Assembly: GCA_949752745.1 (NCBI GenBank)
Contig: OX457031.1
Span: 38,847,502 to 38,911,501 of the forward strand
Origin: Protula sp. h YS-2021
Lineage: Eukaryota; Annelida; Polychaeta; Sabellida; Serpulidae
DNA length: 64,000 bases
Reading direction: 5' to 3'
Shown: piece by piece, positions 31,316 through 63,781 of the stretch
Layout of the letters: the number at the start of each line of letters is the position of its first letter
Numbering within the stretch: the stretch's first letter is position 1
Position numbers and translations under genes: made by a program
The notes under the pieces: model-generated
Told to the model about the DNA's origin: nothing
The model's input: the letters and a program-made list of their open reading frames with translations, nothing else
The model's database searches: none

Positions 31316-32290
31316 CTAATAACGCGTGTGTTCGCCATGGCCATTGATGAATGCAGCACATCTGCGCCTCATTGAAGTCACAAGGCGCTGTATGTGACCT
31401 CTCGGTATACGATGCCACTCTTCCACGACAGCCTGGCGTAGTTCTCGTAAGGTAGACGGAGGGCGGGGTCTCTGGCGGATGGTTCGACCCAGGGCGTCCC
31501 AGATATGCTTTATCGGTGAAAGATCTGGTGAAAACGCCGGCCAAGGCCAAATATGAATTTTATTGGCTTCAAGATAGCCTATGCACTCTCTAGTAACGTG
31601 CGGATGAGCATTATCCTGTTGAAAGATAAGGTTGTTCTGGCGCACAACCGGGACCACACATGGCATTAAGATGTGTTCACGGTATTGCTGTGCCGCGAGT
31701 GTTCCATCCACATAACACAACTCGGTCCTCAGTCCGAAAGCCATTTCACCCCAAACCATGACACTTCCTCCACCATAGCGATCGCGATCGCGCACGCATG
31801 CACTAGTGAATCGCTTTCCAGTTCGACGCCAGCTTCGACAAAAGCGCGACTCATCCGTGAACAAAACCCGATTCCAGCATTGCAGTCTCCATCGAACATG
31901 CACAGGGGGCCACTGGCGCCTTGCGCGACTTCGCGCGGCCGTTAAAGGCATTCCGCGATATGCCAAGCGCCTCCGTAGCCCTTACGAATGGAGCCGTCCC
32001 CGGACTGTTTGACGCCCCGGAAGTGTAGCGGCAGTTGAAGTAGCCAGCTGAAACCTTCGTCGAAAATTTAACAGGAGAACAAACCGATCCTCTTGGCAAC
32101 TCGAGGTCTGCCCCTACGCGGTCGATCAAGTGTAGATCCAGTTTCAGGCAATCGAGCAACCAGCCTATGAATTGTTCTTTCCCACACCAAAATGTCATGC
32201 CACGCCATTTGGGCTGCTTCCACCACTCAACATGCCCATTGCTCGTACGCGATCTATTCTGGATAGGCGTAGCATCGTTAATCGCTTGAA
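31316..32290 (-). pseudogene. Tc1/mariner-like transposase, frameshifted and catalytically dead
   Basis: The minus strand encodes most of a ~330-residue Tc1-type transposase in shifting frames. The first helix-turn-helix (RVRAMGML) is near 32,240. The second has RTIHRLVARLPETGS followed by the RRGRPRV linker near 32,110-32,170. The catalytic domain starts at 31,966, with TDESRF (first Asp), QQDNAHPH (second Asp) and SPDLSPIKHIWD. The Glu of the DD34E triad is Lys here (codon 31,508-31,510), explained by one G-to-A change. Frameshifts separate the N-terminal half. TIRs could not be delimited. The element interrupts the block copy ending near 31,185. Confidence 0.85.
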
Positions 32291-39110: not shown

Positions 39111-39316
39111 AAAAGTAACTGATCAAACGAAATGATAAAGTGATTGTTGGGAGTCCGAAATTTCTGTATTTGACAAGAATAAATAAATATAAGACTCGCG
39201 AACTCAAAAGTACTCGTAGCTGAATTATTGCAAGTTTCACATGAGAGGATTTATTCAATTTCAGGAAGAAATATATCCTCCGTTTCACGGGGGATAAAGA
39301 TTTCGAAGATCGTAAG

Positions 39317-40771
39317 ATGGGGCCCACTTCTCATGAACCATTAATAGTCTCTGACGGAAATTTGACCGTGGCAGCTGATGCATATCCCCTTGGAGCCGAT
39401 CAGGTGACCACCTTGGAAGTAAATAGCTGGGGCTATTCACAATCGTCAGGGGATGTGAACGCCGCCACTTCTGCAGACGTACTGACGACAGAATCATTTT
39501 TCATGTCCATGGATGATGTGGCGTGCTACTCCCAAGATCTTCACAAGGACGCTCATACAGTTTACATGTATATGACGTTTGCTGTTATTTTTTGTGGTAT
39601 TATTGGCAATTCAATCAACATAGCTGTTTTTGCTTCAAAAGAGTTAGCCACAAATAGCTCAGATGTGTACCTGTTAGTTTTAGCGATCACTGACGCTGTC
39701 TACCTGTTTGTGGTCCTCGTCTCACGTGGCTTCGGAAACATACGCTGTTTCTACTTTCGTGGTGAGACATTTGATATCTTCAACCGAAGCACAATGGCTT
39801 GCAAGTGCCTGCAGTTTCTGCTTGACTCCCTGTCGAATTTCTCCAGGTGCATCGTACTGAGCTTCACGTGCGAGCGCCTCGTGGCCTGCTATAAGCCGTT
39901 ATATTTCAAGTTCATGTGTACTTCGCGCCGTGCCTCGCTGGTGTGCGCTGCAACTTGCGCTCTCGTTTTCGTCACTTCAGCACCGCATCACTTCTTGTAC
40001 ATCGGGCGACCGTTTGATTATGATGTATGCACGGTGCTGCCTGAATATGAGCAGCGATTTTCCACCATTTATTTAGTTGAGGTTTTGGCATTCAAAATTA
40101 TCCCTGTCATTGCTATAGCAGTGTGCAATGCTTTTATTATTGTGAAATGTGCAAGCAAATCCGATGCATTTTCTAATGCCACTCGTACAACCCTCAGCGA
40201 TGCTGACAGACGCAACAGCGCGAGCCCAAGTCAGACCTCGACATTTGTCCACAGCTTAGGGAACCGAATCAGAAATTTTCCCTCATTATTCCGTCGTGGT
40301 GGCGCCCACTCCGCGATGGAGAAGCGCACGACACAAATGACCCTGGTCTTGGTATGCGTCTCGTTTTGCTACATCTTCTCTTTTCTCCCGGTACTCATTC
40401 ACTTCCTGGTGTGGAAACTTGAGCGTGCTCACGTCATCAACGTATCCGCAAGCACCTTAGACATCAGCCTCAACTGTAGCCGAATTTTGTATTTGACGGG
40501 ATTTTCGTTGAATTTGTTTCTGTATACTCTTGCCGGTCCTACATTCAAGGCGAGGCTGAAAGCTAGGTTCTGTTGCAGTCAACCTGTCGCCCTCACCATT
40601 GGAACTGTTATGTCACCATTGTTGAGGAAAGGCCCTGCCCTACCAAAAGTGATTATTGATGGGAGCCGTGATCCGATTGAGCTTCGACCTTTGAAGGAAG
40701 TGTTGTCCACAGATGTGTCCTCGCTGAACGTGTCTAGCACCAGTGGCGCAGCGGAAGTCCCCAAAGTTTAG
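39317..40771 (+). CDS. Class A (rhodopsin-like) G-protein-coupled receptor, peptide-receptor type
   Basis: The gene encodes a 484-residue seven-helix receptor from one uninterrupted frame. The ~78-residue N-terminus has an N-glycosylation site (NLT, 15-17). Helices lie near 80-106 (GN at 97-98), 117-137 (LAITD), 163-188, 205-229, 252-277, 340-366 and 386-405. The DRY box is ERL (186-188). C163 and C238 could form the usual disulphide. NPxxY is NLFLY (399-403). The third loop is long (278-339), with a basic stretch before helix 6. FCC at 418-420 after helix 8 is a possible palmitoylation site. The pattern resembles FMRFamide/myosuppressin-like receptors expanded in invertebrates. The ligand cannot be named. 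The start ATG fits the hydrophilic N-terminus. It is the only clearly host-type intact gene in the window. Confidence 0.9.
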   Translation: MGPTSHEPLIVSDGNLTVAADAYPLGADQVTTLEVNSWGYSQSSGDVNAATSADVLTTESFFMSMDDVACYSQDLHKDAHTVYMYMTFAVIFCGIIGNSINIAVFASKELATNSSDVYLLVLAITDAVYLFVVLVSRGFGNIRCFYFRGETFDIFNRSTMACKCLQFLLDSLSNFSRCIVLSFTCERLVACYKPLYFKFMCTSRRASLVCAATCALVFVTSAPHHFLYIGRPFDYDVCTVLPEYEQRFSTIYLVEVLAFKIIPVIAIAVCNAFIIVKCASKSDAFSNATRTTLSDADRRNSASPSQTSTFVHSLGNRIRNFPSLFRRGGAHSAMEKRTTQMTLVLVCVSFCYIFSFLPVLIHFLVWKLERAHVINVSASTLDISLNCSRILYLTGFSLNLFLYTLAGPTFKARLKARFCCSQPVALTIGTVMSPLLRKGPALPKVIIDGSRDPIELRPLKEVLSTDVSSLNVSSTSGAAEVPKV

Positions 40772-48430: not shown

Positions 48431-48489
48431 AGGAATATTCAAAATGGTCACCATTTTGCATTTCATCCGCAGTAGTATGATAATGGGGG

Positions 48490-48740
48490 TTCTGGCTCAC
48501 TTGATGACGTCATCATGTCTGGAAGTGACGTCATAGCGTCTGGACCGGAAGTGCTGTCTAGACCGGAAGTGCTGTCTGGAGTGGAAGTGACGTCATCATG
48601 TCTGGACCGGAAGTGACGTCATCATGTCTGGACCGGAAGTGACGTCATCATGTCTGGACCGGAAGTCATGATAAGCGTTAGGATAGGCGCGACCATCTGT
48701 GACGTCATCATGACGTCATACTGAGATGATGCTGTCTGGA
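48490..48740. repeat. ~26-bp tandem repeat with CRE-like palindromes
   Basis: Three near-perfect copies of GTGACGTCATCATGTCTGGA plus CCGGAA (48,585-48,665) with degenerate copies on both sides. Each unit carries TGACGTCA, the perfect CRE/ATF palindrome; whether it is bound is unknown. Confidence 0.8.
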
Positions 48741-48842
48741 GCGAAAGTGGTTTGGCCGAGTCAATCAACATGAAGCCAATGAACTCGACCTGTCAATCAG
48801 TGTAACCATGGCAACAGACCCTAAAAAGCCACGACCCCCCCC

Positions 48843-49350
48843 CAGGACATACTATGTACCGACCCCCCCCCCTAGGACATACTATGTACCGACCCCCCCC
48901 CTAGGACATACTATGTACCGACCCCCCCCCCTAGGACATACTATGTACCGACCCCCCCCTAGGACATACTATGTACCGACCCCCCCCTAGGACATACTAT
49001 GTACCGACCCCCCCCCCTAGGACATACTATGTACCGACCCCCCCCCTAGGACATACTATGTACCGACCCCCCCCCTAGGACATACTATGTACCGACCCCC
49101 CCCCTAGGACATACTATGTACCGACCCCCCCCCTAGGACATACTATGTACCGACCCCCCCCCCCTAGGACATACTATGTACCGACCCCCCCCCCCTAGGA
49201 CATACTATGTACCGACCCCCCCCCCTAGGACATACTATGTACCGACCCCCCCCCCCCTAGGACATACTATGTACCGACCCCCCCCCTAGGACATACTATG
49301 TACCGACCCCCCCCCAGGACATACTATGTACCGACCCCCCCCCCCCCCAG
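48843..49350. repeat. ~30-bp C-run minisatellite, ~17 copies
   Basis: The unit is AGGACATACTATGTACCGAC followed by 7-16 C and T. Unit length varies by C-run. The opposite strand carries ~17 G-runs, so G-quadruplex formation is possible. Every unit also has a C-tract before (T)AG, resembling a splice acceptor. Confidence 0.95.
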
Positions 49351-50003: not shown

Positions 50004-50197
50004 TGCTGAGTCAGCAATTTTAACTTTTTGGAACAAGTTTGAAAAGTTACACACCATATTTTGATTACATGGAAGTAGCATAAAAGCATGAGTGAAACAT
50101 GTCAACTAGTCAACTAGTGATACATTCTGCTGAGTCAACACACCATTGAAGTGGTATAAAAGGAAGAGTGAAACGTATATTTTACTTCATTTCAGTT
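50004..50197 (+). promoter_or_regulatory. Duplicated promoter of the polymerase gene (Maf/AP-1-type sites, TATA, initiator)
   Basis: TGCTGAGTCAGCA (50,004-50,016) is a perfect T-MARE palindrome containing an AP-1 site. A one-mismatch copy, TGCTGAGTCAACA, is at 50,128-50,140. Each is followed by a similar segment with ACACCAT, then CATAAAAG (50,079) or TATAAAAG (50,155-50,162), and then GAGTGAAAC. An initiator-like TCATTTCAGTT lies ~33 nt after the second TATA box. This places transcription start near 50,189-50,194 and rules out translation from the GTG at 50,168. Confidence 0.65.
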
Positions 50198-50221
50198 CCA
50201 GCAGTTGAAGAAGCAACAACG

Positions 50222-53200
50222 ATGGCACCAGTCTACTGTCATGATTGTGATGTGACATTTCCATCTCTGGAATTGTTCGTGACACACACATGCAAACCAG
50301 CTAGGATGAAACGTGCTCATGAAGAGCTTGTTGAGCAGATTGAAGCCAAGAGACGAAAAACCGTACAAGATGGTGTTGACAGACCTGATCCAGTCCTCTG
50401 CTGTAAATGCGCCAAGATATTTTCATCTTTGGATGCATTTGAGACACATGCATGTGCTGAGATGGAAAATGTGTCTCATGAAGAACAAAGAAAGAAAGAG
50501 ACAGGACAAATAGGCAGAGGCAGAAGAGTGAGTCTTGGTGAAAACGCGCAGGAAAGGCGGTTTGAGCCTGAAGATGGATCGGATTTGCTACTCGAAATGC
50601 GACAACAAGAGAATAGAATCAAGAGACATTTGCTAGAGACGTTAAACCGTGGCATGAAATGGTACATTGTGGTACATGCACGCTTCAAGAAAATGACACC
50701 AAATGTTGAAGGCGTGATGGTAGAACAAGTGGATAATGCCTTCATCAGTAGTCCAACGTATGCAGCATACAATCCAACAGATATTGAGAAGGACTTGCCA
50801 GAAGCCTATAAAGAATTGTTTACCAGGTTTGATGAACATGAGCGACAAGGCTCTGGCTGGGTGTTGGATAACATATTATTCATTGAAGTGCATACAGCTA
50901 CGTCAGCGCCACTGGAAGCAAGCAGTTTTATCCCACTACCGAAGAAAGTAAAGAGTACAAAGGCGGTGTTAAACATTCAGAATAAAGACAACAAGTGCTT
51001 CTTATGGTCTGTACTGGCTCACCTTCACCCTTCAACAAATGTAAACCCATACCGTGTGAATCAATACAAGTCATTTGAGAACGAATTGAAGGTGGAAGGC
51101 ATGACATTTCCAACACCGATTACAGACATTCCAAAGTTTGAAAAGGAGAATGATGTGTCCATTAACGTGTTTGGATATGAACATGATGTCGTTGTTCCCA
51201 TACAACTCAGTCGAAACACCAGCGCCAACAGCGCCAACAGCGCCAGAGAAATCAAATTGCTTTTGATTAGCAATGACAAGACAAGACATTATTGCCTCAT
51301 CAAGAATTTCAGCAGACTGATGGCTTATCGATCAAAGCATAAGGCTGCAGCATTTTATTGTTTCAACTGTCTTCACGGGTTTATACGACAAGATCTGTTA
51401 GACAAGCATCGTGAAGTGTGTGGCAAGCATGGCGCACAACGTTTATCATTTCCCAAGGAACCCTTCATCAAGTTCAAGAATGTAGCCAAACAACAGCGAG
51501 CGCCGTTTGTCATTTATGCAGACTTTGAATGTTTCACGAAAAAGCATGAAGGAGACAAGTATCAACATCATCGTCCAAACAGCTTTGCCTACGTGGTTGT
51601 CAGCCAGTATGAAACACGTGCTCCAGTCGTATATCGAGGCGATAATGCCGTGAAAGTCTTTTTAGACCATATGGTATATGAACGTGATCGTATTGTGCAT
51701 GGTCTACAGCAGAAAAAGAAAATAGTCATGACTTGTGAAGATGAAGAGCATTATAAGAACGCCACAGATTGCTACATTTGTCATGAGCCTCTAGGAGCAG
51801 ATCGTGTGAGAGATCATGATCATATCAATGGCAAATACCGCGGAGCTGCACATAATGAATGCAATTTACAATTTCGATTTCGAAAGGATAAGCAGGATGT
51901 TGAAGATTCTTTCATCATTCCTGTCTTTTTCCACAATTTACGAGGCTATGACAGTCATTTGATCATGGAAGAAATTGGAAAGTTCAAAAATGAAACCATT
52001 ACAGTCATTCCCAACACCGTTGAGAAATATATTGCATTCACCATGAGCAATCTGAAATTTACAGACAGCTTTCAGTTCATGAGTACTTCTCTACAGAAGT
52101 TGGTCTCCAACCTGGCAGCAGAAGGGAAAGACAACTTTTATCACATGACGTCACACATTCACGATAGTGACCAACAAGAGTTACTGTTGAGAAAGGGAGT
52201 ATACCCTTATGATTACGTGGATGAGCCATCCAAGTTTGCTGAAACACAACTGCCGTCCAAGGACAAGTTTTACAGTCTGCTCAGTGAAGAAGACATTAGC
52301 GATGAGGATTATGCGCATGCGCAGAAGGTGTGGGAGACATTCCACTGTACTACATTTGGCGAATACCATGACTTGTACCTGAAATCAGATGTGTTGCTGC
52401 TGGCTGACGTGTTTGAAAACTTTCGTCACGTATGTCTCAACACGTATGAATTAGATCCTGCTCACTACTATACAGCGCCAGGACTGTCGTGGGATGCCAT
52501 GTTGAAAGCGACAAAGGTGAAATTGGAATTGATTAACGACATTGACATGTACCAAATGGTTGAACAAGGTCTACGTGGAGGAATATCTGTCATCACACAC
52601 AAGTATGCGAAAGCAAATAACCCCTACGTACCAGATTACGATCCCACGAAACCAACCAACTACTTGACGTACCTGGATGCAAACAACTTGTATGGCTGGG
52701 CTATGTCGCAAAGCATGCCGGAAAGTGGATTTATGTGGGTGAGCGAGCCAGAATCCATTGACTTTATGGATGTGGATGAAGATGACGAGATTGGATACAT
52801 TTTAGAAGTGGATTTGGAATACCCATATTCAATTCATGATCATCATAATCACTACCCAGTGGCTCCAGAACGGAAATGTGTGAAAGTGGGAGAATTGTCA
52901 AAACATAGTCAGAAGCTACGGAAAGATCTAGACATGAAAAGCAAGCCTAGTGAAAAGCTCATTCCCAACTTGTGTGACAAGAAGAAATATGTGCTTCATT
53001 ATAGAAATTTACAGCAATATGTCTCACTGGGATTGAAAGTCACGAAGGTGAACCGTGCCATCATGTTTGCACAGAGCAAATGGTTGGCAAAATACATCTC
53101 CTTGAACACGGAAAAGAGAAAGTTGGCTAAGAACCCGTTTGAGAAAGACTTCTTCAAATTGATGAACAACTCGGTGTTTGGCAAAACCATGGAAAATGTA

Positions 53201-53917
53201 AGAAAACGCATCAATGTGGAACTTGTTCACCAGGAAAAGCGGTTCAAGAAACTTGTAGCCAAACCTTCCTTCCACAAATTTAGAATTTTCAACGAAGATT
53301 TGACCGCGGTACATTTACGCAAAGTGGATCTGCTTCTGGATAAACCCATTCAAGTTGGGTTCACCATTCTCGACCTCAGCAAAGTGCTCATGTTCCACTT
53401 TCATTACAACTACATCATGACCAAGTATCCCGACGCCAAACTCTTGTTCAGCGACACCGACAGTCTATGTTATGACATAGAAACGGACGATATCTACAAA
53501 GACATGCAGGAAGATGCCGACTTGTTCGACACAAGTGACTATCCCCCAGATCATTTCCTGCATTCCAACGTGAACAAGAAAGTGCTTGGGAAAATGAAAG
53601 ATGAGACGGCGGGCATTCCCATTGAAGAGTTTGTTGGACTTCGGCCGAAAATGTATAGTATGATATATGGTGGGAAAGAAAAACGTACGGCTAAAGGCAT
53701 CACTCGCGCGTGTCAAAGACGGATGAAACATCAGCAGTATAGAGACAGTTTGTTCAACCAAACGCAAACGATGACTACAGGGCACATCATTCGAAGTCAT
53801 GACCACCAGATTTTCTCGGAGAAGTTGAGGAAAGTGGCTCTCTCTCCCCTTGATGATAAGCGATATGTGATGAGTGATGGCTATTCCACTTTGGCGCATG
53901 GGCATTACAGTATATAA
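50222..53917 (+). CDS. POLB: Polinton protein-primed family B DNA polymerase
   Basis: This enzyme replicates the element. ATG 50,222 is chosen because the longer frame begins only 6 nt after the TATA box; the product is 1231 residues. Positions below count from 50,168. Two N-terminal CxxC...HxC fingers (24-42, 78-96) precede a long N-terminal region. A third finger (CFNC...H...C) lies near 399-418. Exonuclease motif I is YADFECF (D452, E454). An HNH/endonuclease VII-like insert (CYIC...RDHDHINGKYRGAAH..CN) lies near 537-573. Polymerase motif A is LDANNLYGWAM (D837), motif B KLMNNSVFGK (K997) and motif C FSDTDSL (D1096, D1098). All key residues are intact. The stop codon lies inside the TATA box of the next gene. 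Confidence 0.95.
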   Translation: MAPVYCHDCDVTFPSLELFVTHTCKPARMKRAHEELVEQIEAKRRKTVQDGVDRPDPVLCCKCAKIFSSLDAFETHACAEMENVSHEEQRKKETGQIGRGRRVSLGENAQERRFEPEDGSDLLLEMRQQENRIKRHLLETLNRGMKWYIVVHARFKKMTPNVEGVMVEQVDNAFISSPTYAAYNPTDIEKDLPEAYKELFTRFDEHERQGSGWVLDNILFIEVHTATSAPLEASSFIPLPKKVKSTKAVLNIQNKDNKCFLWSVLAHLHPSTNVNPYRVNQYKSFENELKVEGMTFPTPITDIPKFEKENDVSINVFGYEHDVVVPIQLSRNTSANSANSAREIKLLLISNDKTRHYCLIKNFSRLMAYRSKHKAAAFYCFNCLHGFIRQDLLDKHREVCGKHGAQRLSFPKEPFIKFKNVAKQQRAPFVIYADFECFTKKHEGDKYQHHRPNSFAYVVVSQYETRAPVVYRGDNAVKVFLDHMVYERDRIVHGLQQKKKIVMTCEDEEHYKNATDCYICHEPLGADRVRDHDHINGKYRGAAHNECNLQFRFRKDKQDVEDSFIIPVFFHNLRGYDSHLIMEEIGKFKNETITVIPNTVEKYIAFTMSNLKFTDSFQFMSTSLQKLVSNLAAEGKDNFYHMTSHIHDSDQQELLLRKGVYPYDYVDEPSKFAETQLPSKDKFYSLLSEEDISDEDYAHAQKVWETFHCTTFGEYHDLYLKSDVLLLADVFENFRHVCLNTYELDPAHYYTAPGLSWDAMLKATKVKLELINDIDMYQMVEQGLRGGISVITHKYAKANNPYVPDYDPTKPTNYLTYLDANNLYGWAMSQSMPESGFMWVSEPESIDFMDVDEDDEIGYILEVDLEYPYSIHDHHNHYPVAPERKCVKVGELSKHSQKLRKDLDMKSKPSEKLIPNLCDKKKYVLHYRNLQQYVSLGLKVTKVNRAIMFAQSKWLAKYISLNTEKRKLAKNPFEKDFFKLMNNSVFGKTMENVRKRINVELVHQEKRFKKLVAKPSFHKFRIFNEDLTAVHLRKVDLLLDKPIQVGFTILDLSKVLMFHFHYNYIMTKYPDAKLLFSDTDSLCYDIETDDIYKDMQEDADLFDTSDYPPDHFLHSNVNKKVLGKMKDETAGIPIEEFVGLRPKMYSMIYGGKEKRTAKGITRACQRRMKHQQYRDSLFNQTQTMTTGHIIRSHDHQIFSEKLRKVALSPLDDKRYVMSDGYSTLAHGHYSI

Positions 53918-53972: not shown

Positions 53973-54317
53973 ATGAAAAGATCTGCACCAACGGATATGG
54001 ATACTCTTGCTGATACGGTGAAAGACATGAAAGTGAAACATCCTGATACTACCATTAAGAAATTAAAAGTGGAGATAGCACCAACACCACAGTTGTGGGA
54101 TGGAATGCTTTCTCTAGGCAATGGAAAGTATATCAAGATTATGAAACAAAGTAATGAAGGTGTGGTGAACATTCGCAAATACCTCAGAGATGAGGGGACT
54201 GGAAAAAACCGTCCAACGAAAAAGGGAATTTTGCTGACAATACCTGAATGGAAAATGCTGAAGAAGCAGGTGAAAGAAGTGGATAAAAGGCTTCGCAGAC
54301 AAGACGACAAGTCATAA
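53973..54317 (+). CDS. PC4/p15-like single-stranded DNA-binding protein
   Basis: A 114-residue basic protein. Residues ~45-106 match the C-terminal ssDNA-binding domain of the transcription coactivator PC4 (SUB1): L-G-x-G-K-Y-I-K-I, then V-V-N-I-R-K-Y-L-R-D, PTKKGILLTIPEW and LKKQV-x-x-VD. This is the expected beta-beta-beta-beta-alpha order, and EW opens the helix. The N-terminus (1-40) is Lys/Asp/Thr-rich, comparable to the SEAC region. In PC4 proteins this fold binds melted DNA. A role in element replication or transcription is inferred from its place after the polymerase gene under its own TATA promoter. The start is the first ATG after the initiator. Confidence 0.75.
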   Translation: MKRSAPTDMDTLADTVKDMKVKHPDTTIKKLKVEIAPTPQLWDGMLSLGNGKYIKIMKQSNEGVVNIRKYLRDEGTGKNRPTKKGILLTIPEWKMLKKQVKEVDKRLRRQDDKS

Positions 54318-54330
54318 CAAGGTAACAATC

Positions 54331-54702
54331 ATGAATGCACTCATGCTGAACGGTGGTGTTTACCTTACTGTCAATGAGAGGAATGAAGTGATACTAGATT
54401 CTAAGACAAGTTATCATCGGTTTAAACCTGAAGTGTGGAAAGACTTTAAAAACATACCGCTTGAAGCTGGGTTTAAACGCAGACTTGAAAATAAAGTGGA
54501 AGTGACGGTAGCTGAATATGATTCTAACATACGTGTAGAAATCTGTAGAAATCTTTTACAGGATTATCCAAAGGATTATAAGGGAGTTGTGCCAGATACA
54601 CCATATACAGATTTGATCATCTTTGATATCAAGAATTGGCGCGCAGTCTTACGATTCCTAGAAGTGATACAACATCCACTCTTCGCCATCTTGCGAGCAT
54701 AA
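54331..54702 (+). CDS. Small PC4-fold-like paralogue 1
   Basis: A 123-residue protein starting 13 nt after the PC4-like gene. No database-type motif is obvious. The C-terminal half follows the same layout as its neighbours: a strand (KVEVTVAEYDSNIRVEI), a loop, then a strand and helix (DLIIFDIKNWRAVLRFLEVI). This resembles the PC4 end, with Trp at the start of the helix. The N-terminal half (GGVYLTVNERNEVILDS) may repeat the strand pattern. It is probably a diverged ssDNA-binding-type domain; this is inference from pattern, not recognised homology. Confidence 0.55.
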   Translation: MNALMLNGGVYLTVNERNEVILDSKTSYHRFKPEVWKDFKNIPLEAGFKRRLENKVEVTVAEYDSNIRVEICRNLLQDYPKDYKGVVPDTPYTDLIIFDIKNWRAVLRFLEVIQHPLFAILRA

Positions 54703-54757
54703 AAAACGTCTTTGCAGACAAGGAGACAGCTCATAGTTCATCTGACTGCTGGACGAG

Positions 54758-55099
54758 ATGGAAGACTTTTTAACGGAATATAAACCAATTACGCATGGGT
54801 TCTCATATCTGAGAAACGAATATGATGACATTGTGCTAAGACATTTTGGACAGTATCTCGTCCTATCACTTGATGACCAATCCGTGTTGAAAGACCATCT
54901 AGAGAAGTTCAGGATACCTGGCTTTCTCCTGACAGTCTCAAATGAATTAGAAGTGCGTGTGACTGAGAACTGCTTAGACGTGTTTATACAATTTCGCCAA
55001 TATGACGAGCTTACAGAAAACTATGATTACATCACCCTCAACACAGTGGAATGGAACGCGTTGTTACAAGCATTGGATTGGAAAGAACCTAACGCTTGA
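54758..55099 (+). CDS. Small PC4-fold-like paralogue 2
   Basis: A 113-residue acidic protein from ATG 54,758, 55 nt after the previous stop. The C-terminal half, ELEVRVTENCLDVFIQF to YDYITLNTVEWNALLQALDW, matches the neighbours' strand-strand-EW-helix layout closely. The 3' part overlaps the next ORF by 98 nt in another frame. Function is unknown; probably the same family as 54,331 and 55,002. Confidence 0.6.
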   Translation: MEDFLTEYKPITHGFSYLRNEYDDIVLRHFGQYLVLSLDDQSVLKDHLEKFRIPGFLLTVSNELEVRVTENCLDVFIQFRQYDELTENYDYITLNTVEWNALLQALDWKEPNA

Positions 55100-55379
55100 A
55101 TTCAAAGAAACAGAAATATGGCTTACACGAGGCACCAAATCCATTGAGCTGACACAACCTATGCGTGTGATGGACATTGACTTAGAAGAAGAAGGATATG
55201 AACTGAAACTGTCTGAACATGTAACTGTTAAAGTGATAAAGTTTGGTGATGTGTGTTATGTGAGCTTTCATAGCATTTACAAACATGGATGTAGTGTCTA
55301 TGATACCTATATCAATTTAGATTCTAATGAATGGTATTCATTGATGAATGTATTGAAAAATGAATGTGTTTGTAAATAA
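55002..55379 (+). CDS. Small PC4-fold-like paralogue 3, overlapping start
   Basis: The frame is open from ATG 55,002. Its first ~32 residues only translate paralogue 2 out of frame, and family-like sequence starts near 55,103 (EIWLTRGTKSIELTQ). A later in-frame ATG at 55,159 would remove the first strands, so expression may use the overlap (reinitiation or frameshift). The C-terminal half, KLSEHVTVKVIKFGDVCYVS to DTYINLDSNEWYSLMNVL, carries the common layout. AATAAA overlaps the stop region (55,378). Confidence 0.55.
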   Translation: MTSLQKTMITSPSTQWNGTRCYKHWIGKNLTLEFKETEIWLTRGTKSIELTQPMRVMDIDLEEEGYELKLSEHVTVKVIKFGDVCYVSFHSIYKHGCSVYDTYINLDSNEWYSLMNVLKNECVCK

Positions 55380-55756: not shown

Positions 55757-56158
55757 TTAATAAAACAATGGTTTATGATGTCTATATACAAACTCCTTTA
55801 CAATAAAATCACCATCCTTTCTTTTTAATATATTCACAATATGAAACATACTCTGACCTCGAGCTCTATGCAATATATAATATACACAATAAAAACCACA
55901 TGACGATGATATTGGCGTTTGTAATGATATAGAATTATACATATAGTCATTTCTTAAAAACATGTCAAAATATTCCACAGGGTCTTTATCATAATACACT
56001 GCCACCCAATGTTCTCCTGGTTCATCTTGATCGTCTGTGTTGATCACATAGGCGCCGCGTTGTAAAGACGGTAACTGGTCCATGGCAAACACGCCTTGAA
56101 ACAAGTCTTTGGTCATGACATCATGACTCAATATGGCATCAATCTGCTTCGTGTTCAT
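55757..56158 (-). CDS. PRO: Polinton adenain/Ulp1-like cysteine protease (maturation protease)
   Basis: A 133-residue protein with the catalytic pattern of adenovirus-type proteases: EHWVAVYY (H50), VEYFDMF (D65), Q80 and SSSCGFYCVYYI (C87). In the adenain family the enzyme cleaves capsid precursor proteins during virion maturation. The order His-Asp-Gln-Cys is preserved, but the segment between Asp and Gln is short (~14 residues). Polinton proteases are usually longer there and in total, so this copy may carry an internal deletion and its activity is uncertain. The ATG overlaps the capsid-gene stop by 4 nt (ATGA). Confidence 0.85.
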   Translation of the reverse strand: MNTKQIDAILSHDVMTKDLFQGVFAMDQLPSLQRGAYVINTDDQDEPGEHWVAVYYDKDPVEYFDMFLRNDYMYNSISLQTPISSSCGFYCVYYILHRARGQSMFHIVNILKRKDGDFIVKEFVYRHHKPLFY

Positions 56159-57528
56159 GACTGGTAGTCGAATTGGATGCTGCGATTGGCACTGATCTCA
56201 ATAATGTTGTCAAATTCAGCATAGACAATGACATTGATTGTAGGTTGCAAAGCCCTAGCAAAGTTCATTTCTAGCCGCAAATTCCCATGCTTGATCAGGG
56301 GGAAATGATCATCACCATCATAATCCGGTGTTAAGTCAAACGAAAATAAAGCATAACCTCTAGGCCAATCTTCCCGTTTTATAATGGAACTTTTCTCACC
56401 ATTCAACCGATCAAACGATTTGTAAAGCGTTTCAAAAGCGTTCAGGTATTTGTTCTGTGTAATGTCAAGCTTGAGAGGTTTGGATAGAACTGGTTCACCA
56501 TCCGTGTACAGTTGCATATAGTCCAGATTAAAATGATCAAAATTGTATGGATTCCTCAATACTGATCCACCAAAAGCTTCATTATGAACCAGACCAATGA
56601 CAATACGATTTGGTAATTGACCCAAAAAGATGTTATCTTTCACAAAAGACTGAAATCCTGCTGGAATGGCCAAGACTTTACATTCTTTTCTAGTGATGAT
56701 GATCTTGGCAGGACTTTTCATCAATGCATCTGCATGTCCTAACTGAATACCTGGACTCACCCTCACTTTGCGAATGGTTAAAAATGCCTCTTTCACTTCT
56801 ACCTTATAGGTATTATTTACAGCCATCAATACATAGTCATCTTTTTGTCTATGGAAACGTAATTTCAAACTGATGCCATTCGGAAGATACCGATCCTGCT
56901 CAAACAAATCTATCCTTAAACCACCTGCGAGCATAACATCACGGCTAAGACGAGTATGCAAATAACGATGATGTAAGCCATTATTGCCTTGCTCAGCCAA
57001 GTCACCACCGTCGGCATTGACATGAAACCCGGATACATATTGTTCATGATTAGGTCTTTTCACCTCATGACTATTCATTGACCCAGCAGTATCCTTGTAC
57101 ATGAGACGCATAGAGCGCTCAGAATGCAGACTTTCTTCCGAATCATGGATGAGATGAGAGATAATGCTGGTATAACCATGAGTATTGTTGCTATGCGAAA
57201 CCAAACGATCATTCAGAAACAATTCAATATTAGACCATAACCCATTAAACACATCATTGATGCAAGAGACATTATCATCTGCGCCACACGCTGTTCCATC
57301 AGCCTTTAGAATGCGACATACAATATGAAGTTTGCTGTTCTTTAAATCCAGATATTCTTCTGTACTCGCAGGAATGTAGAATTCTATTGGAGCGCCTTCT
57401 CTAATGCTTGTAAGTGGTTGATAGTCAACATTATAACTTTTCTCTACAGCAGTTTGCGTTGGTGGTACGTGAAACCATTCCAATGGAGAAAGACTACATT
57501 CACACGAATGATTATGAATGAGAGACAT
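56155..57528 (-). CDS. PC1: Polinton major capsid protein (double jelly-roll, hexon-like)
   Basis: A 457-residue protein of the class annotated in nematodes as transposon-derived F54H12.2, established as the Polinton major capsid protein with two jelly-roll folds. Visible hallmarks are PIEFYIPASTEEYLDL near residue 46, HGYTSIISHLI in the first roll, the strand-rich LRIDLFEQDRYLPNGISLKL, FLGQLPNRIVIGLV near 300, and the C-terminal HGNLRLEMNFARAL and INVIVYAEFDNIIEI. Length fits the family. No internal stop is present. The ATG is preceded by an A-rich leader. It lies in the late-type block between the small basic protein and the protease. Confidence 0.9.
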   Translation of the reverse strand: MSLIHNHSCECSLSPLEWFHVPPTQTAVEKSYNVDYQPLTSIREGAPIEFYIPASTEEYLDLKNSKLHIVCRILKADGTACGADDNVSCINDVFNGLWSNIELFLNDRLVSHSNNTHGYTSIISHLIHDSEESLHSERSMRLMYKDTAGSMNSHEVKRPNHEQYVSGFHVNADGGDLAEQGNNGLHHRYLHTRLSRDVMLAGGLRIDLFEQDRYLPNGISLKLRFHRQKDDYVLMAVNNTYKVEVKEAFLTIRKVRVSPGIQLGHADALMKSPAKIIITRKECKVLAIPAGFQSFVKDNIFLGQLPNRIVIGLVHNEAFGGSVLRNPYNFDHFNLDYMQLYTDGEPVLSKPLKLDITQNKYLNAFETLYKSFDRLNGEKSSIIKREDWPRGYALFSFDLTPDYDGDDHFPLIKHGNLRLEMNFARALQPTINVIVYAEFDNIIEISANRSIQFDYQS

Positions 57529-57539
57529 TTTTTTTTTCT

Positions 57540-57881
57540 TTAAAAAATATCTTTGCGATATTTTGATGTTATCCGTCTGGCTGTTTTTCGTCTTCTGGCA
57601 CGTTTCGTTGGTTGCATACGCTTTTGTTCACCAAACACACGTTCTGCTACTCGGCCCGTCACATCTTTCGCGACATTCTTTGCAGCCTTCTTAAGATGTG
57701 GCGCAACGATCTTAGCCCCAGCCTTAAGTAGTGGAATAGCTTTGCGAGCCAATGATCCCAGTATGGAACCAATACCATCGCCATATTGGATTCGCGCTCC
57801 TTTGAATCCTGGTAATTCCCCGCCCACTTGACGAAGAAAATGGTTGCGATATGCAGACGGATCGTGTGTATAAGCTTTCAT
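57540..57881 (-). CDS. Small basic virion protein with Gly-rich amphipathic segment (pVI-like)
   Basis: A 113-residue protein. The N-terminus, AYRNHFLRQVGGELPGFKGA, leads to a Gly-rich stretch (YGDGIGSILGSLARKAIPLL) and a Lys/Ala-rich helix (GAKIVAPHLKKAAKNVAKDV). A strongly basic tail follows (KRARRRKTARR). This arrangement is recurrent in Polinton and adintovirus gene sets beside the capsid genes, and is compared there with adenovirus pVI or core proteins. Membrane disruption or DNA condensation are possible roles, not shown. The ATG overlaps the penton gene stop by ATGA; 11 nt separate it from the major capsid ATG. Confidence 0.7.
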   Translation of the reverse strand: MKAYTHDPSAYRNHFLRQVGGELPGFKGARIQYGDGIGSILGSLARKAIPLLKAGAKIVAPHLKKAAKNVAKDVTGRVAERVFGEQKRMQPTKRARRRKTARRITSKYRKDIF

Positions 57882-58636
57882 ATTGCTTTTGGTCGAAAAT
57901 GAAGTTTACAGATCACCTTTCCAGTTTGAAATGGAACATTATGGCCTGTGTCGTCCTTAATATTCATTTCTATCACGTCAAATTTGGACGTGTTTACAGG
58001 AACATAATGCGGTTCGCCGTACGTTTTCATGATAATGTCACCATCATGGCCTTGTATGCCAACAGAACGTAGTAACGGCACATAATAATCACCAACAACT
58101 TGTGGTTCACAAATGCTACAATACACATACAGTGTATAAAACCCCTGTTTCACATCCGCTTTATGTTCAGCTGTACATGTTTCAGTATACCATTGATCTG
58201 GGATAAATCCTAAAATCTCAGCCAATCCAGTGGAAAAAGACACTTCATAGCCATAATCGAGAAATAGAAACACACGTCGTCTAATCTTATCATACTTTAG
58301 CCGAATAGCTTCTGTAAGTTTCAGAGCATTAGTCGCTTCTTCATTGACTGCCTCACATAGTTCTTGTATGGTTCTATAGTACCCATAAGGAATATTGAGA
58401 GTGCTAAGAATAGGATCATCGAATAGTTCTTGTCGATACTGAATAGAATAGTCCATGCCCTGTCTCATCGTTGTCCATGTATGTGGATATTGAATTTCAG
58501 CTAAAGCCACTTCATATTTTCCATTCAGATAGATGGTTCGAGGCATACGAATTTGATAATTTGAAGCCTTGTTGTTGGGATAATAGGTCATACTCGCATT
58601 GCTAGGCAAAGTAATGTAAAAGCTTGTCGACTCCAT
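57878..58636 (-). CDS. PC2: Polinton minor capsid (penton-like) protein
   Basis: A 252-residue protein. It begins STSFYITLPSNASMTYYPNN and continues with SNYQIRMPRTIYLNGKYEVA and LAEIQYPHTW. This is the usual opening of the Polinton single-jelly-roll minor capsid protein, predicted to form the five-fold vertices. The C-terminal half has VVGDYYVPLLRSVGIQG and the terminal strand VPFQTGKVICKLHFR. The frame is intact and length is normal. It sits directly upstream of the pVI-like gene, with a 4-nt ATGA overlap. Confidence 0.88.
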   Translation of the reverse strand: MESTSFYITLPSNASMTYYPNNKASNYQIRMPRTIYLNGKYEVALAEIQYPHTWTTMRQGMDYSIQYRQELFDDPILSTLNIPYGYYRTIQELCEAVNEEATNALKLTEAIRLKYDKIRRRVFLFLDYGYEVSFSTGLAEILGFIPDQWYTETCTAEHKADVKQGFYTLYVYCSICEPQVVGDYYVPLLRSVGIQGHDGDIIMKTYGEPHYVPVNTSKFDVIEMNIKDDTGHNVPFQTGKVICKLHFRPKAI

Positions 58637-59424: not shown

Positions 59425-59747
59425 TTTAACAGCAGTTTGGCTAACAAGGGCAATGCCAATCTAGCAATAACTCCAATGAATCCTCCTTTCTGATTAATCA
59501 ACTTCTTTTTTCGTCGAAGGGATATCTTCTTATCTGCTAGAGTACGAAGCGTATGACGTTCACGTTTAAATTCCTTAAACCGTTTTGAGCTTAAGGGTAA
59601 ATGTCCTTGCAATATATTCAAACAAATTTCAAACAAGCTTGTTAATTCCTCCTTTGTAGCTTGCTGTAGCAAGGATTTACGTCGTTTAGGCCCACTGCGT
59701 GCAAGCAAATGAAGAAACGGCTGGTTCGCTCGAATACGTTTAGACAT
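59421..59747 (-). CDS. Small basic Polinton protein with C-terminal hydrophobic tail
   Basis: A 108-residue protein. The helical region contains RRKSLLQQATKEELTSLFEI and CLNILQGHLPLSS, followed by basic FKRERHTLRTLADKKISLRR. The end, KGGFIGVIARLALPLLAKLL, is Gly-started and hydrophobic. This layout recurs in Polinton-like elements and some retroviral-like host ORFs as a tiny gene near the ATPase. A membrane-active or DNA-binding role is possible but unproven. Start ATG 59,747 overlaps the ATPase end by 8 nt. Confidence 0.65.
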   Translation of the reverse strand: MSKRIRANQPFLHLLARSGPKRRKSLLQQATKEELTSLFEICLNILQGHLPLSSKRFKEFKRERHTLRTLADKKISLRRKKKLINQKGGFIGVIARLALPLLAKLLLK

Positions 59748-60399
59748 CTTGACTGCGAATGGTCAAATGAGTTGGTTCTTGTTCATACACTGCTTTATCA
59801 ATATAGACATAATGTGTATCTTTTGGTAAAATGCCTGTACGAATACGTAGTTGATCATTTGTCTTTGGTTTTAAATCAATGAATAAATAACCATGAGGTT
59901 TGCTAGTAGCATCTTGATAGGCTTCTATGAGAAATTGAGATCTTCCAGGATACATTTGCCGCGCCAATGTACTAATTTGTTGACTGTCTCTCGGATTTTT
60001 AAACAGAATGATATAATGTGTATTCAAACTAATATTTCGCATCTCTTTCCCATGATGAAATAAATTATGTACAATAAAGATAATGCTTAGATTTTGATGA
60101 CTGCTGCTAACACTAAAGAGACGTGTCATACGCTCATCACTATGACATTTCGTCATTAAGTCATCAATGATAAGTAAGTTTGGTTTCTTCGGGTTAAAAC
60201 GCTCTTCAATGTCATCTGGAATGCCTTGGTAAAATTCCACGCCTTTCATTCCCTTGTACAAAGGCTGATCTGCTGCATAAAGCCATAAAATGCTTTTTGG
60301 AGAGGGTTGAATCAACTTTTGTTCTAGAATTTCCTTCACCAGAGACGTTTTGCCACTGCCTGTAGGTCCAGAGACCAAACATGTAAATGGATGCTTCAT
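59740..60399 (-). CDS. ATP: Polinton genome-packaging ATPase (FtsK/HerA type)
   Basis: A 219-residue P-loop ATPase, with Walker A GPTGSGKT at 11-18 and Walker B LLIIDD at 75-80. A downstream helix SVSSSHQNLSIIFIVHNLF carries the sensor-like region (IFIVHN). In double-jelly-roll viruses this family pumps genomic DNA into the capsid. Start ATG 60,399 is chosen: it overlaps the integrase stop as ATGA, and the nine residues upstream depend on a non-ATG start. Length is normal for Polintons. Confidence 0.9.
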   Translation of the reverse strand: MKHPFTCLVSGPTGSGKTSLVKEILEQKLIQPSPKSILWLYAADQPLYKGMKGVEFYQGIPDDIEERFNPKKPNLLIIDDLMTKCHSDERMTRLFSVSSSHQNLSIIFIVHNLFHHGKEMRNISLNTHYIILFKNPRDSQQISTLARQMYPGRSQFLIEAYQDATSKPHGYLFIDLKPKTNDQLRIRTGILPKDTHYVYIDKAVYEQEPTHLTIRSQDV

Positions 60400-61502
60400 T
60401 GTTGAATGTCTGTTTCTTTCACCCAACTGTTAAACTTGTTTGGCCAACCTAACCACTTGACAAATAATTCTTTCACACCTCCTCCTCGTCTTTTACGTGT
60501 TTTCAAGACTTTTTCAATTCTATAAATAGATTCAATATCTTTGGTCACTTTCTGCAGTTCTTCTTCATAGAAATGGCCATCAATATCTTCGTCTAAAAAG
60601 TCTTTCACACGATACAAATGTATTCCTTGCTTCTTACAACGATGTGTGACAATGAAGACTTCTTGCGTCCATTTGATGTGATAATCGCGTTGAAACACAT
60701 ATTTAATGTGGGAAATACGAACATGATCGCCAATGTTAAATTTATACTTCTTCTTCTTCTTCGGTTTCAATTTCAGTTTGTCAACATACATATACTTCCA
60801 CACTTTTGATTCGTTGTCTTTACGAATCTCGGCTGGAGCATATTTATTAGGAAGAGAACCATGAGGTCTATGGTTGTAATTGTACACCAAGTCTGGAAGA
60901 ATGTCTAAGTAACGGTAAGTTTGATTATGTAGAAAATACCGATACATCATTCCCTTCAGAGTACGAATGACTCTTTCAGCAAAGTTGGCTTTGGTTTCAT
61001 TCTTTGTGGTATAAGCATGAATGCCTTCTTTCTTCAAAAATGCTTTTACCCATCTGTTTTTAAATTCTGTTCCTTTATCAGACCTTAGAGTTCGCGGTCT
61101 TCGTCGTGTGTCATGAAAAATCTTTTGGAAAGCTTGTATGACGCTGGTATGTGATTTATTAGGTATTGGCTGTACCCAGACATATTTGGAAAACACATCA
61201 ATGACAATGAGTAAAAAGCGTATGTCATCATTATAGGGAGCTATGTTTCCCATGTCTGCCAAATCAATATCCCACATATCATCAATGCCACGTGTAATGA
61301 CACGTTGTCTTTTGAACCTGTATTTGACAGGTTGGAGTAAACTGAAAGCATCTTGATCCTGTAGCCATTTCTTCACTTGTGAATGTGTGACTGGTTGATT
61401 ATGTTTTCGTAAGATGTGATACAGTTTGTAAGGACCAGCAAATGCTCCAGGCTGTCCAGGTTTGAAGTAAATATTGGTCAAGTAGTCTTTCCACGTCGAC
61501 AT
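60396..61502 (-). CDS. INT: Polinton retroviral-type integrase with chromodomain
   Basis: A 368-residue integrase that inserts the element into host DNA. The catalytic triad is D80 (WDIDLADM), D142 (RSDKGTEF) and E176 (NFAERVIRTLK), with 33 residues between the last two. The N-terminal part resembles the zinc-less linker of Polinton integrases (HSQVKKWLQDQD). The core also has LLIVIDVFSKYVWVQPI and YNHRPHGSLPNKYAP. The C-terminus (~residues 323-368) is a chromodomain: IYRIEKVLKTRKRRGG then KELFVKWLGWPNKFNSWV, suggesting chromatin targeting. ATG 61,502 is chosen, because the upstream extension needs a TTG. It is intact. Confidence 0.93.
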   Translation of the reverse strand: MSTWKDYLTNIYFKPGQPGAFAGPYKLYHILRKHNQPVTHSQVKKWLQDQDAFSLLQPVKYRFKRQRVITRGIDDMWDIDLADMGNIAPYNDDIRFLLIVIDVFSKYVWVQPIPNKSHTSVIQAFQKIFHDTRRRPRTLRSDKGTEFKNRWVKAFLKKEGIHAYTTKNETKANFAERVIRTLKGMMYRYFLHNQTYRYLDILPDLVYNYNHRPHGSLPNKYAPAEIRKDNESKVWKYMYVDKLKLKPKKKKKYKFNIGDHVRISHIKYVFQRDYHIKWTQEVFIVTHRCKKQGIHLYRVKDFLDEDIDGHFYEEELQKVTKDIESIYRIEKVLKTRKRRGGGVKELFVKWLGWPNKFNSWVKETDIQQ

Positions 61503-61540
61503 GGTCACACCGAATGAAAACCACCTTCTCAACAGAACAG

Positions 61541-61555
61541 CTTTTATTTTATAAC
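61541..61555 (-). promoter_or_regulatory. TATA-like box upstream of the integrase
   Basis: The minus strand reads TTATAAAATAAAAG, ~40 nt before the integrase ATG. It may drive the nine-gene block. No initiator match comparable to the other promoters was seen. Confidence 0.4.
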
Positions 61556-61607
61556 TCAACCAACATCACTTAACTAACATGCATTTATAACTTAACTAAC
61601 AAGTTTT

Positions 61608-61940
61608 TTACAAATCAAGTATAGATACAATGGTATGAATCACTGGAGACCATTGGTCTTCAATGAACACTAACCAATGACTGAGTTCATCCAATGTAAT
61701 AGCATCTACACCATATTTCTCACAACGTTGATTTGCATTCTCTAACACTTTATCTAAATGCATGTAATATTTAGCTTCATTCCAATATGTATAAACAGAT
61801 GCAGCATGACAAGTATGTTCTTGACACTCTTCATGTTGACAAGCAGGACAGACTAAATATGCAAACTTTTTTACAGCTGATAACATTTCTTCACAATAAG
61901 CTTTTTGCACAATATATTGTCTCAGTGTCTTGTCCGCCAT
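61608..61940 (-). CDS. Unrecognised 110-residue protein with Cys motif
   Basis: From ATG 61,940 (MADKTLRQYIVQKAYCEEML) the protein has a Cys/His cluster, LVCPACQHEECQEHTCH, that could bind zinc. The remainder is helical and acidic (ITLDELSHWLVFIEDQW). It lies 105 nt before the integrase ATG in the leftward set. No family is recognised. Confidence 0.6.
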   Translation of the reverse strand: MADKTLRQYIVQKAYCEEMLSAVKKFAYLVCPACQHEECQEHTCHAASVYTYWNEAKYYMHLDKVLENANQRCEKYGVDAITLDELSHWLVFIEDQWSPVIHTIVSILDL

Positions 61941-62041
61941 TGTGCAGTCTTGAATCAATGCAACACAAGTTAAACATACTTCAAATTTACATGTTCACAC
62001 GTCTGCACACCATAACGGTTGGCAAGCAAATGAAAAAGTCT

Positions 62042-62479
62042 CTAACCCTCACACAACAGTTCTAACAACTTTCCCATGATATTCTGACCAGGATATCCAG
62101 ATGACACTTGTTTCACACCAGCTCCCCACCAATGATCATACGTTGCTTCAACTAAAGTTTTATCTTTACATTCTTTCAACTTGTTGCGAAACAATACACA
62201 CTGATCCAGTTTGACTTGTAAAACATCTTGCATTTTGCTTCTCTTCACTGTATGCCATAAAGGACATGGCTTTATCACTTTAGCAATACGTTTTGCTTCA
62301 TATCCATTTCTACATGAAGCAATGGCTGAAGCAATATCTTGACGGTGATGAAACACTGCTTTCTCATATTGATACAACGCTTCACTTGAGTTGAACACAT
62401 GTCCATACTTTTCAAGTCGTGTTGGAAACATATTTGAAAGAACGTCCTTATGACCGCTGAATAGTACAAGATTCTCCAT
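62042..62479 (-). CDS. NADAR/YbiA-like domain protein
   Basis: A 145-residue protein consisting of one NADAR (DUF1768) domain. Matching blocks are FSGHKDVLSNMFP (7-19), like the F-x(n)-SNFYP opening; FNSSEALYQYEKA (29-41), like the T-SEHYYQ-x-K-A helix; MQDVLQVKLDQ (83-93); LVEATYDHWWGAG (109-121); and the final G-x-N-x-x-G-K-LL (131-139). NADAR proteins act on ADP-ribose-linked or riboflavin-pathway substrates; YbiA is an N-glycosidase. Some family members reverse DNA ADP-ribosylation. Here it lies in the leftward Polinton gene set, ATG intact. A role in countering host ADP-ribosylation is inference. Confidence 0.8.
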   Translation of the reverse strand: MENLVLFSGHKDVLSNMFPTRLEKYGHVFNSSEALYQYEKAVFHHRQDIASAIASCRNGYEAKRIAKVIKPCPLWHTVKRSKMQDVLQVKLDQCVLFRNKLKECKDKTLVEATYDHWWGAGVKQVSSGYPGQNIMGKLLELLCEG

Positions 62480-62677: not shown

Positions 62678-63010
62678 TTAAAAAAGGTTTTTATAACTTA
62701 CCTGATAAAGCTGCTCGGTTTCCTCTTCTTCTTTACAACAATCTCTCAAATGATCAACCACGGTGAAATATACTTCCACATCAGTGCGAGCAGAATAAAG
62801 TGCAGAATCAAAGTCAAAGTCAGGATCTTCTTCTATTCCAGTTTTATGACATTCTCCAAGAAATCTTGAATGCAGTTCAATCACATCAAGACTATGATGT
62901 ACAACATCCCAAAAAGCATCCAAATGATAAAGTTGATAGTCTGGAGTGCCACAGCAAGCAAGTTTAGCAATCATCAAGTCAATATAAGCATTTTTAAAAC
63001 ATGCGTCCAT
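62678..63010 (-). CDS. Unrecognised acidic 110-residue protein, probable spliced 3' end
   Basis: The ORF runs from ATG 63,010 with MDACFKNAYIDLMIAKLACC, then YHLDAFWDVVHHSLDVIELH, and an acidic middle (GIEEDPDFDFDSALY). The last seven codons run through CAG|GTAAGT (boundary 62,702/62,701), a perfect splice donor, so the genomic stop may not be the real end. The family is unknown. It starts 24 nt beyond the stop of the 63,035 gene on the same strand. Confidence 0.55.
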   Translation of the reverse strand: MDACFKNAYIDLMIAKLACCGTPDYQLYHLDAFWDVVHHSLDVIELHSRFLGECHKTGIEEDPDFDFDSALYSARTDVEVYFTVVDHLRDCCKEEEETEQLYQVSYKNLF

Positions 63011-63034: not shown

Positions 63035-63673
63035 TTACTTTGCTTCACTGACTTTAAGTACTCCACACTTGCCGCAGAAGTTGCTTGGTTCACACAACTT
63101 GCAATTATACTTGTGGCAGTGGCAATGATAATCCTCCACATATCCACAAGCACCGCAATAGTCACAGGTAAGTCCAAGTTGATTTTGTACGTTCATGTTC
63201 TCCAACTGAACTTCAGCCAGCCTTTTCTTGGATAGCTTTGACAACTTCATCCGACCATCCTTTTGCAGCTTGATGATCGTTTTCTTGTCATGACATTCCT
63301 CACATGGTGATAGGGCTGAGTTGATGTTGTCCATCTCCTGAAGCAGTGTCTCCCATTCACCATCATTCATGTTGATGTGATGTGTGTATTCTTTCCCTTC
63401 AAACCGTGACGTGCGCACAAAACTCACATAGCGCATATCCAAGTATGAAATGACTTCAAGCCACTTCGTTTGCGTTAAGTACAGTTTGAAGCCAATGTCG
63501 CGTAAATTTTTCAAGCTTTGGCATACAATCTTCCACAAAGATGGTGAATAAGCACACCATCTCTCTCCACGTGTGATGCGTAGAAATGGCCCATATTCTC
63601 CATGCTCCACAGTAATGGTTAAGTTAGCACTAATTTTAAAGCTGCTGCTGCTGCTGCTTGTCTTGTTCTCCAT
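63035..63673 (-). CDS. Cys-rich protein with PC4-fold-like segment
   Basis: A 212-residue protein from ATG 63,673, the first ATG after the TATA box (the longer frame would start inside the promoter). It opens with a Ser run (KTSSSSSSFKI). The middle has WLEVISYLDMRYVSFVRTS and YTHHINMNDGEWETLLQEMD, the same strand-strand-EW-helix layout as the small rightward genes. Two Cys pairs follow (SPCEECHDK), then a C-terminal Cys/His cluster (CDYCGAC, HCHCHKYNCKLC, CGKC) suited to bind two or more zinc ions. It is probably a nucleic-acid-binding protein and the first gene of the leftward set. Confidence 0.6.
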   Translation of the reverse strand: MENKTSSSSSSFKISANLTITVEHGEYGPFLRITRGERWCAYSPSLWKIVCQSLKNLRDIGFKLYLTQTKWLEVISYLDMRYVSFVRTSRFEGKEYTHHINMNDGEWETLLQEMDNINSALSPCEECHDKKTIIKLQKDGRMKLSKLSKKRLAEVQLENMNVQNQLGLTCDYCGACGYVEDYHCHCHKYNCKLCEPSNFCGKCGVLKVSEAK

Positions 63674-63721
63674 GGCTGCTACAATGTACTGATGATGCAC
63701 TCCCTCCAACTGTCTGCTGAG

Positions 63722-63781
63722 AAATGACTTCACTCTGCTGAGTTCACTCCCTTTTATACCCAACTATCTGCTGAGTCAGCA
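63722..63781 (-). promoter_or_regulatory. Promoter of the leftward set: T-MARE, TATA, initiator
   Basis: On the minus strand: T-MARE TGCTGACTCAGCA (63,781-63,769), TATAAAAG (63,758-63,751), GGGAGTGAA, then TCATTT at ~33 nt (63,727-63,722). Extra TCTGCTGAG half-sites lie near 63,735 and 63,713 on the plus strand. It mirrors the polymerase promoter at 50,128-50,197 in order and spacing. Confidence 0.65.

Follow-up and report, generated by a model that had tools for sequence, protein, structure and literature searches.

The genome of the serpulid annelid Protula sp. h YS-2021 contains a small open reading frame that resembles NADAR enzymes and lies among the genes of a Polinton. Its location raises two questions: whether the element carries an intact NADAR, and what the element may gain from it. 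Both were addressed starting from a stretch of 64,000 nucleotides on contig OX457031.1, hereafter the window.

Identity of the NADAR frame and its predicted active site

The ORF list of the window gives a complete frame of 145 aa on the minus strand, and the plus-strand reading of the same interval (62042-62479) is riddled with stops. In profile searches, the predicted protein matched Pfam PF08719 over residues 13-140 (66.2 bits, cut-off 35.1), which places it in the superfamily. The top-scoring family was the phage family phrog_1017 (104.6 bits, E 1e-29), and PADLOC PDC-M42C was matched at E 1.3e-10. Among NCBIfam models, the frame scored below the cut-off of the riboflavin N-glycosidase equivalog TIGR02464 (63.3 against 73.7 bits) and below that of NF053876 (56.2 against 240). 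A PDB search with the single sequence placed YbiA at E 0.055 only, after two unrelated hydrolases, and a 10-sequence profile recovered 2b3w (3.8e-32) and 8bau (6.9e-31). The structure prediction (pLDDT 86.4, poor in loop 115-130) suggests a YbiA-like fold, with 8bau and 2b3w as its only clear structural matches. A chance open reading frame is ruled out by the profile matches and the predicted fold.

The ADP-ribose contacts of the Phytophthora nicotianae NADAR (PDB 8bau), a guanine-ADPr hydrolase that is encoded by a cellular gene and is 24% identical to the mobile-element protein studied here, are tabulated in section 12 of PMC11543638. Nine side-chain contacts were compared: E43, K50, K75, R79, W89, R93, E125, D130 and W133 correspond to E33, K40, K63, K67, W75, K79, E111, D115 and W118, respectively, with seven of the nine identical and two carrying Lys for Arg, and with the D115 and W118 correspondences falling within the low-confidence model loop. 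Four further contacts are changed: G78 and V81, which make contact via the backbone in the P. nicotianae protein, are replaced by A66 and I69, D86 is replaced by C72, and Y84, which stacks on adenine, has no counterpart (PMC11543638). E33, K40 and E111 are the counterparts of residues required for guanine-ADPr hydrolysis in other NADARs. The catalytic Glu and Lys (E33 and K40) are kept in all 68 copies fetched from the genome (see below), and all 15 key residues are kept in 66 of them, the exceptions being one S15P and one stop at K67. K63 is the counterpart of a lysine of E. coli C7 NADAR that is required for cell protection against DarT1 and dispensable for catalysis (PMC11543638); E. coli YbiA has Ala at this position. 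The last-strand residue is Glu in the YbiA type, Asp in the BC4488 type and His in the phage type (PMC11543638). Judged from these residues, the Polinton protein is an intact NADAR with most ADP-ribose-contacting residues retained, and E111 assigns it to the glutamate (YbiA-type) class, although last-strand Glu alone separates no groups because phage rows of our alignment carry Glu too.

The host Polinton and its gene map

Terminal inverted repeats, a 6-bp target-site duplication, a retroviral-type integrase and a packaging ATPase identify the element as a Polinton, of 17,466 bp (Table 1). Its terminal inverted repeats are 100% identical when the left end is compared with the fetched right end (L045). 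The right end corresponds to position 65936, 1,936 bases past the window, and NADAR lies inside the element. Integrase, packaging ATPase, protease and putative capsid genes are found downstream of NADAR on the same strand, with ORF110 and ORF242 upstream. The longest of the listed frames, which we take from its motifs to be the protein-primed DNA polymerase, matched no Pfam family above cut-off (Endonuclease_7, 19.8 against 23.6). The major capsid protein is presumed from position and resemblance, and the penton protein from position. Pfam and PADLOC profiles revealed no ADP-ribosyltransferase family in the three neighbours of NADAR (ORF116, ORF110 and ORF242), and the predicted model of ORF242 was uninformative (pLDDT 33.7). 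These results bear out the sequence-only reading both in its NADAR/YbiA-like assignment and in its claim that an animal Polinton carries the gene on the same strand among its own: the integrase and ATPase genes follow NADAR, and the terminal inverted repeats enclose it.

Table 1 Features of the NADAR-bearing Polinton (window coordinates unless stated).
Feature	Position	Strand	Remarks
Target-site duplication ATCCGC, left copy	48465-48470		6 bp; read from sequence
Left terminal inverted repeat	48471-48843		373 bp; end-to-end comparison
Putative protein-primed DNA polymerase frame	50168-53917	+	1249 aa; start uncertain
PC4-like protein	53973-54317	+	Pfam PF02229 37 bits, cut-off 25; after polymerase
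Adenovirus-type protease	55757-56158	-	Peptidase_C5 20.4 bits, just under cut-off 21.3
Putative major capsid protein	56155-57528	-	827 relatives, best 79%; no Pfam family
Putative penton protein	57878-58636	-	no Pfam family
Packaging ATPase	59740-60426	-	Adeno_IVa2 28.7 bits (cut-off 21), Pox_A32 28 (cut-off 22.8)
Integrase with chromodomain	60396-61559	-	rve 42.5 bits, Chromo 32.7 bits, both over cut-off
ORF116	61608-61958	-	between integrase and NADAR; no Pfam or PADLOC family
NADAR	62042-62479	-	145 aa, complete frame
ORF110	62678-63010	-	upstream of NADAR; no Pfam or PADLOC family
ORF242	63035-63763	-	upstream of NADAR; likely start 63673 (alignment)
Right terminal inverted repeat	L045:1764-2136 (window-equivalent 65564-65936)		outside window
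Target-site duplication ATCCGC, right copy	L045:2137-2142		read from sequence

Other features were observed within the element and elsewhere in the window. Each terminal inverted repeat is bordered on its inner side by a tandem array containing long runs of C or G (~48830-49350, and ~1350-1775 of L045), and by reading the units differ between the two ends. By reading, small ORFs near the PC4-like gene (perhaps 54331-55379 on the plus strand and 63035-63763 on the minus strand) resemble one another in their C-terminal pattern, with no profile match. At 39245-40771 (plus strand), a long open frame, probably a host gene, encodes a receptor domain of the rhodopsin type (7tm_1, 54.8 bits). Integrase-bearing retroelement pieces, a DDE_3 transposase and a LINE-like reverse transcriptase (LINE by reading) are found at 13368-15144 (plus), 31316-31981 (minus) and 5816-8726 (plus), respectively.

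Copies across the genome and probable selection on NADAR

A search of the 863-Mb assembly (218 contigs) with the NADAR protein yielded at least 150 scored genomic matches from 2,817 first-look candidates. The 150 listed copies are 97-100% identical, 37 of them at 100% (the window's own counted), and 148 have no stop. Sixty-eight of the 150, ranked by NADAR similarity, were fetched with ~1.5 kb on either side. All 68 retain Polinton sequence on both sides, ruling out a host gene that adjoins the element. In 53 of these copies at least 3,300 bp align in a single piece, the other 15 aligning in two or three pieces, and the median best-piece identity is 97.8%. Over ~1.5 kb, pairwise distances among the 69 sequences (the 68 plus the window) have a median of 1.2% and a maximum of 8.6%. 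With ORF110 as the probe, 1,954 candidates included 40 scored matches, each identical to the query; by coordinate comparison, 30 of the 40 adjoin a NADAR copy among the 150 listed. Four of the other ten loci were fetched, and in all four the NADAR frame is open and 96-98% identical. NADAR has spread with the Polinton to at least 150 loci.

Variation was compared in 62 of the 69 NADAR sequences, two with a premature stop, after exclusion of seven that matched incompletely or carried an indel. In this sample, whose pN/pS is lowered by the ranking of copies on NADAR similarity, variants seen more than once comprise nine replacement, one stop and 12 silent changes (pN/pS 0.21), and single variants comprise seven replacement, two stop and seven silent changes (pN/pS 0.33). 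If mutation bias is left aside, 12 or more silent changes among the 22 shared variants have a binomial probability of 0.0004. The four copies chosen via ORF110, which are few, show six replacement and nine silent distinct variants (pN/pS 0.17). For comparison, the shared-variant pN/pS is 0.09 for part of the integrase (58 of 69 sequences), 0.24 for both ORF116 (53 of 69) and ORF110 (48 of 69), and 0.61 for ORF242 (17 of 69). Purifying selection on NADAR is likely, and its variation looks constrained.

Two of the points named by the sequence-only reading bear on these copies. Its refuting case, in which related Polinton copies lack the gene and the locus holds it as a host gene, can be excluded for this genome, in which the gene is repeated with Polinton flanks. 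As for dN/dS among copies, the shared variants and the four ORF110-chosen copies both point to constraint, but the main sample is similarity-ranked and falls short of proving purifying selection.

Relatives and NADAR in other mobile elements

Among 5.8 billion proteins, 21 word-sharing candidates were found for NADAR and none matched at E 0.001; in the same set, the putative capsid protein has 827 relatives. In viral_contigs, no capsid protein relatives were found with a single query or a 20-sequence profile. The lack of a NADAR match does not imply that other Polintons are without NADAR, because ORF242 also found only two relatives, 45-46% identical, in the protein search; the NADAR end of the Polinton therefore changes fast. 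In the phage collection, 332 records match NADAR at E 0.01, each less than 60% identical, and the listed phage proteins are at most ~35% identical. BFVD contributes 47 matching models at E 0.001; they belong to phages, giant viruses and invertebrate RNA viruses, and the best of them is unnamed in the tables. Identity of the Polinton protein to its relatives is ~30%, and in blastp within the collected sequences a Gypsy-type NADAR (32%, 71 bits), a Staphylococcus phage (31%, 70.5) and a LINE NADAR (32.5%, 68) are about level. A 26-row tree joined the Polinton and Gypsy-type NADARs (93/88), both on long branches. Without the Gypsy row, the Polinton NADAR is not fixed in place within its half of the tree, and without the Polinton row the Gypsy-type NADAR shifts to the other half, so the origin of the Polinton NADAR is left unsettled by the trees.

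When the genome was searched with the Pfam NADAR model, at least 150 places scored 77.9-114.2 bits, all above the 66 of the Polinton protein. Thirteen of the 150 listed places were read (ten loci, L110-L119, and three fetched later, L120-L122) and are of two kinds; the remaining places may include host genes or elements of other types. The first kind (L110-L119, L121 and L122) has a coiled-coil-like N-terminal part and a C-terminal NADAR, and from reading we take it to resemble LINE ORF1. For L121, 559 residues were read in an open frame of 599, and for L122, 447. An endonuclease and reverse-transcriptase frame, intact or broken, lies downstream by reading in all three families fetched (L123-L125). 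The second kind, L120, joins NADAR (85.2 bits) to TatD DNase (73.6 bits) in a single frame that by reading adjoins and follows a Gypsy-type pol frame (L126; C8 near 42.155 Mb). At least 16 listed places, with frames of ~820-1,120 residues and near-equal scores, look like the same repeated NADAR-TatD family. Two of the ORF1-NADAR copies lie beside coding sequence of this Polinton family, a polymerase-frame stretch at L119 and a 193-aa ORF at L116, as if LINEs had been inserted into Polintons.

According to PMC9503650, NADAR occurs in phages, in several clades of giant viruses, in iridoviruses of insects, in ascoviruses and in RNA viruses of invertebrates; these viral NADARs are likewise accessory and, in DNA viruses, usually stand-alone. 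Polinton, adintovirus and maverick go unmentioned in the main text of this survey. In searches of the open-access literature, none of the papers listed joins NADAR or YbiA to a polinton, maverick or adintovirus, and the only report found of a NADAR domain with a retrotransposon is PMC12477816, which describes it in the Gypsy Pol of Ectocarpus and in ORF1 of a Tx1 LINE of the Pacific oyster. Those NADARs are likewise in mobile elements, and LINE ORF1-like NADARs are present in the Protula genome too. However, they are fused domains, whereas the Polinton NADAR is a free enzyme in a DNA element with capsid-like genes; the Gypsy-type NADAR-TatD frame lies downstream of pol, whereas the NADAR of Ectocarpus Gypsy Pol is N-terminal. 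NADAR in mobile elements is already known, and within the open-access literature a Polinton carrier and three element classes in one genome appear to be new. With the bacterial DarT1-NADAR and YarT-YbiA pairs, the Polinton protein has in common the predicted NADAR fold and the catalytic Glu and Lys, and it keeps the anti-DarT1 lysine. Unlike in DarT1-NADAR pairs, no partner ADP-ribosyltransferase is found in the neighbouring ORFs, and the last strand carries Glu rather than the Asp of the DarT1-linked class.

Possible roles of the Polinton NADAR

We tentatively favour the view that NADAR is an accessory enzyme that erases ADP-ribosylation and would serve as counter-defence on the element's own nucleic acid. 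On an ADP-ribosylated base, guanine being the likeliest, the enzyme would bind the ADP-ribose and cut the ADP-ribose-base bond, and this erasure may lift a block set by a host ADP-ribosyltransferase on the element's DNA (or RNA) during replication. Here, we infer the substrate, the host writer and the benefit to the element alike. Undoing host ADP-ribosylation would be compatible with the conserved site predicted for the protein, and the presence of NADAR in mobile elements of unrelated types within one genome would agree with a host pressure on mobile nucleic acid that all of them face. According to PMC11125620, all NADARs tested reversed guanine, not thymidine, ADP-ribosylation in vitro, whereas protection of cells varies with the partner: despite their activity in vitro, YbiA and a tested phage NADAR gave none against DarT1. 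The substrate is therefore not given by family membership. Guanine-N2 DNA ADP-ribosylating activity is described for six edible clams in PMC11209040, so animals with matching chemistry exist.

NADAR may instead break down a soluble immune signal or a toxic metabolite derived from ADP-ribose or NAD, blunting host signalling rather than repairing nucleic acid. This role, for which the small, stand-alone form of the protein and the action of YbiA on riboflavin intermediates (PMC11543638) would speak, is possible but somewhat unlikely, since the riboflavin N-glycosidase cut-off is missed and the lysine linked to DarT1 protection is kept, unlike in YbiA. PMC9503650 proposes such a role for phage NADARs, but macromolecular targets for those of animal RNA viruses. 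It is also conceivable, and in our view improbable, that NADAR was captured and spreads with the Polinton without benefit to it. The copies are young, given their identical terminal inverted repeats and short distances, so frames could stay open without selection, and no relative was found in the large protein set; the low pN/pS in both samples, the retention of key residues despite only ~30% identity to relatives, and the recurrence of NADAR in other element types argue against a passenger.

A further reading, that NADAR strips ADP-ribose from element transcripts or otherwise processes them, has a similarly small chance of being correct. Polintons are thought to replicate as DNA, which would make an RNA role less specific for them. 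The NADAR-bearing retroelements of this genome do have RNA intermediates, and RNA processing is suggested for retroelement NADARs in PMC12477816. Finally, an element-encoded ADP-ribosyltransferase might make the host dependent on NADAR, or make competitors suffer without it. Bacterial NADARs are antitoxins beside DarT1 and YarT (PMC11543638 and PMC11125620), but no ADP-ribosyltransferase profile was found in the three neighbouring ORFs, and we consider such an arrangement very improbable.

In bacteria, ADP-ribosylation of bases is an established chemistry of toxins and of defence against phages. The Polinton described here is young, has multiplied strongly and carries what looks like an intact eraser, which adds an enzyme to the known Polinton cargo; two kinds of retroelement in the same genome also carry the domain. 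Together they offer a concrete system for asking whether animals mark the nucleic acid of mobile elements with ADP-ribose and whether the elements answer with NADAR. The presence of NADAR in Polinton, LINE and Gypsy-type elements of one genome hints at a shared way around host defence. More speculatively, and with considerable doubt, NADAR may be a general counter-defence module acquired separately by unrelated elements, as a free enzyme in the Polinton, a domain of LINE ORF1 and a NADAR-TatD nuclease fusion in a Gypsy-type element. If so, the host would police mobile nucleic acid by base ADP-ribosylation, which would represent a so far undescribed layer of animal immunity.
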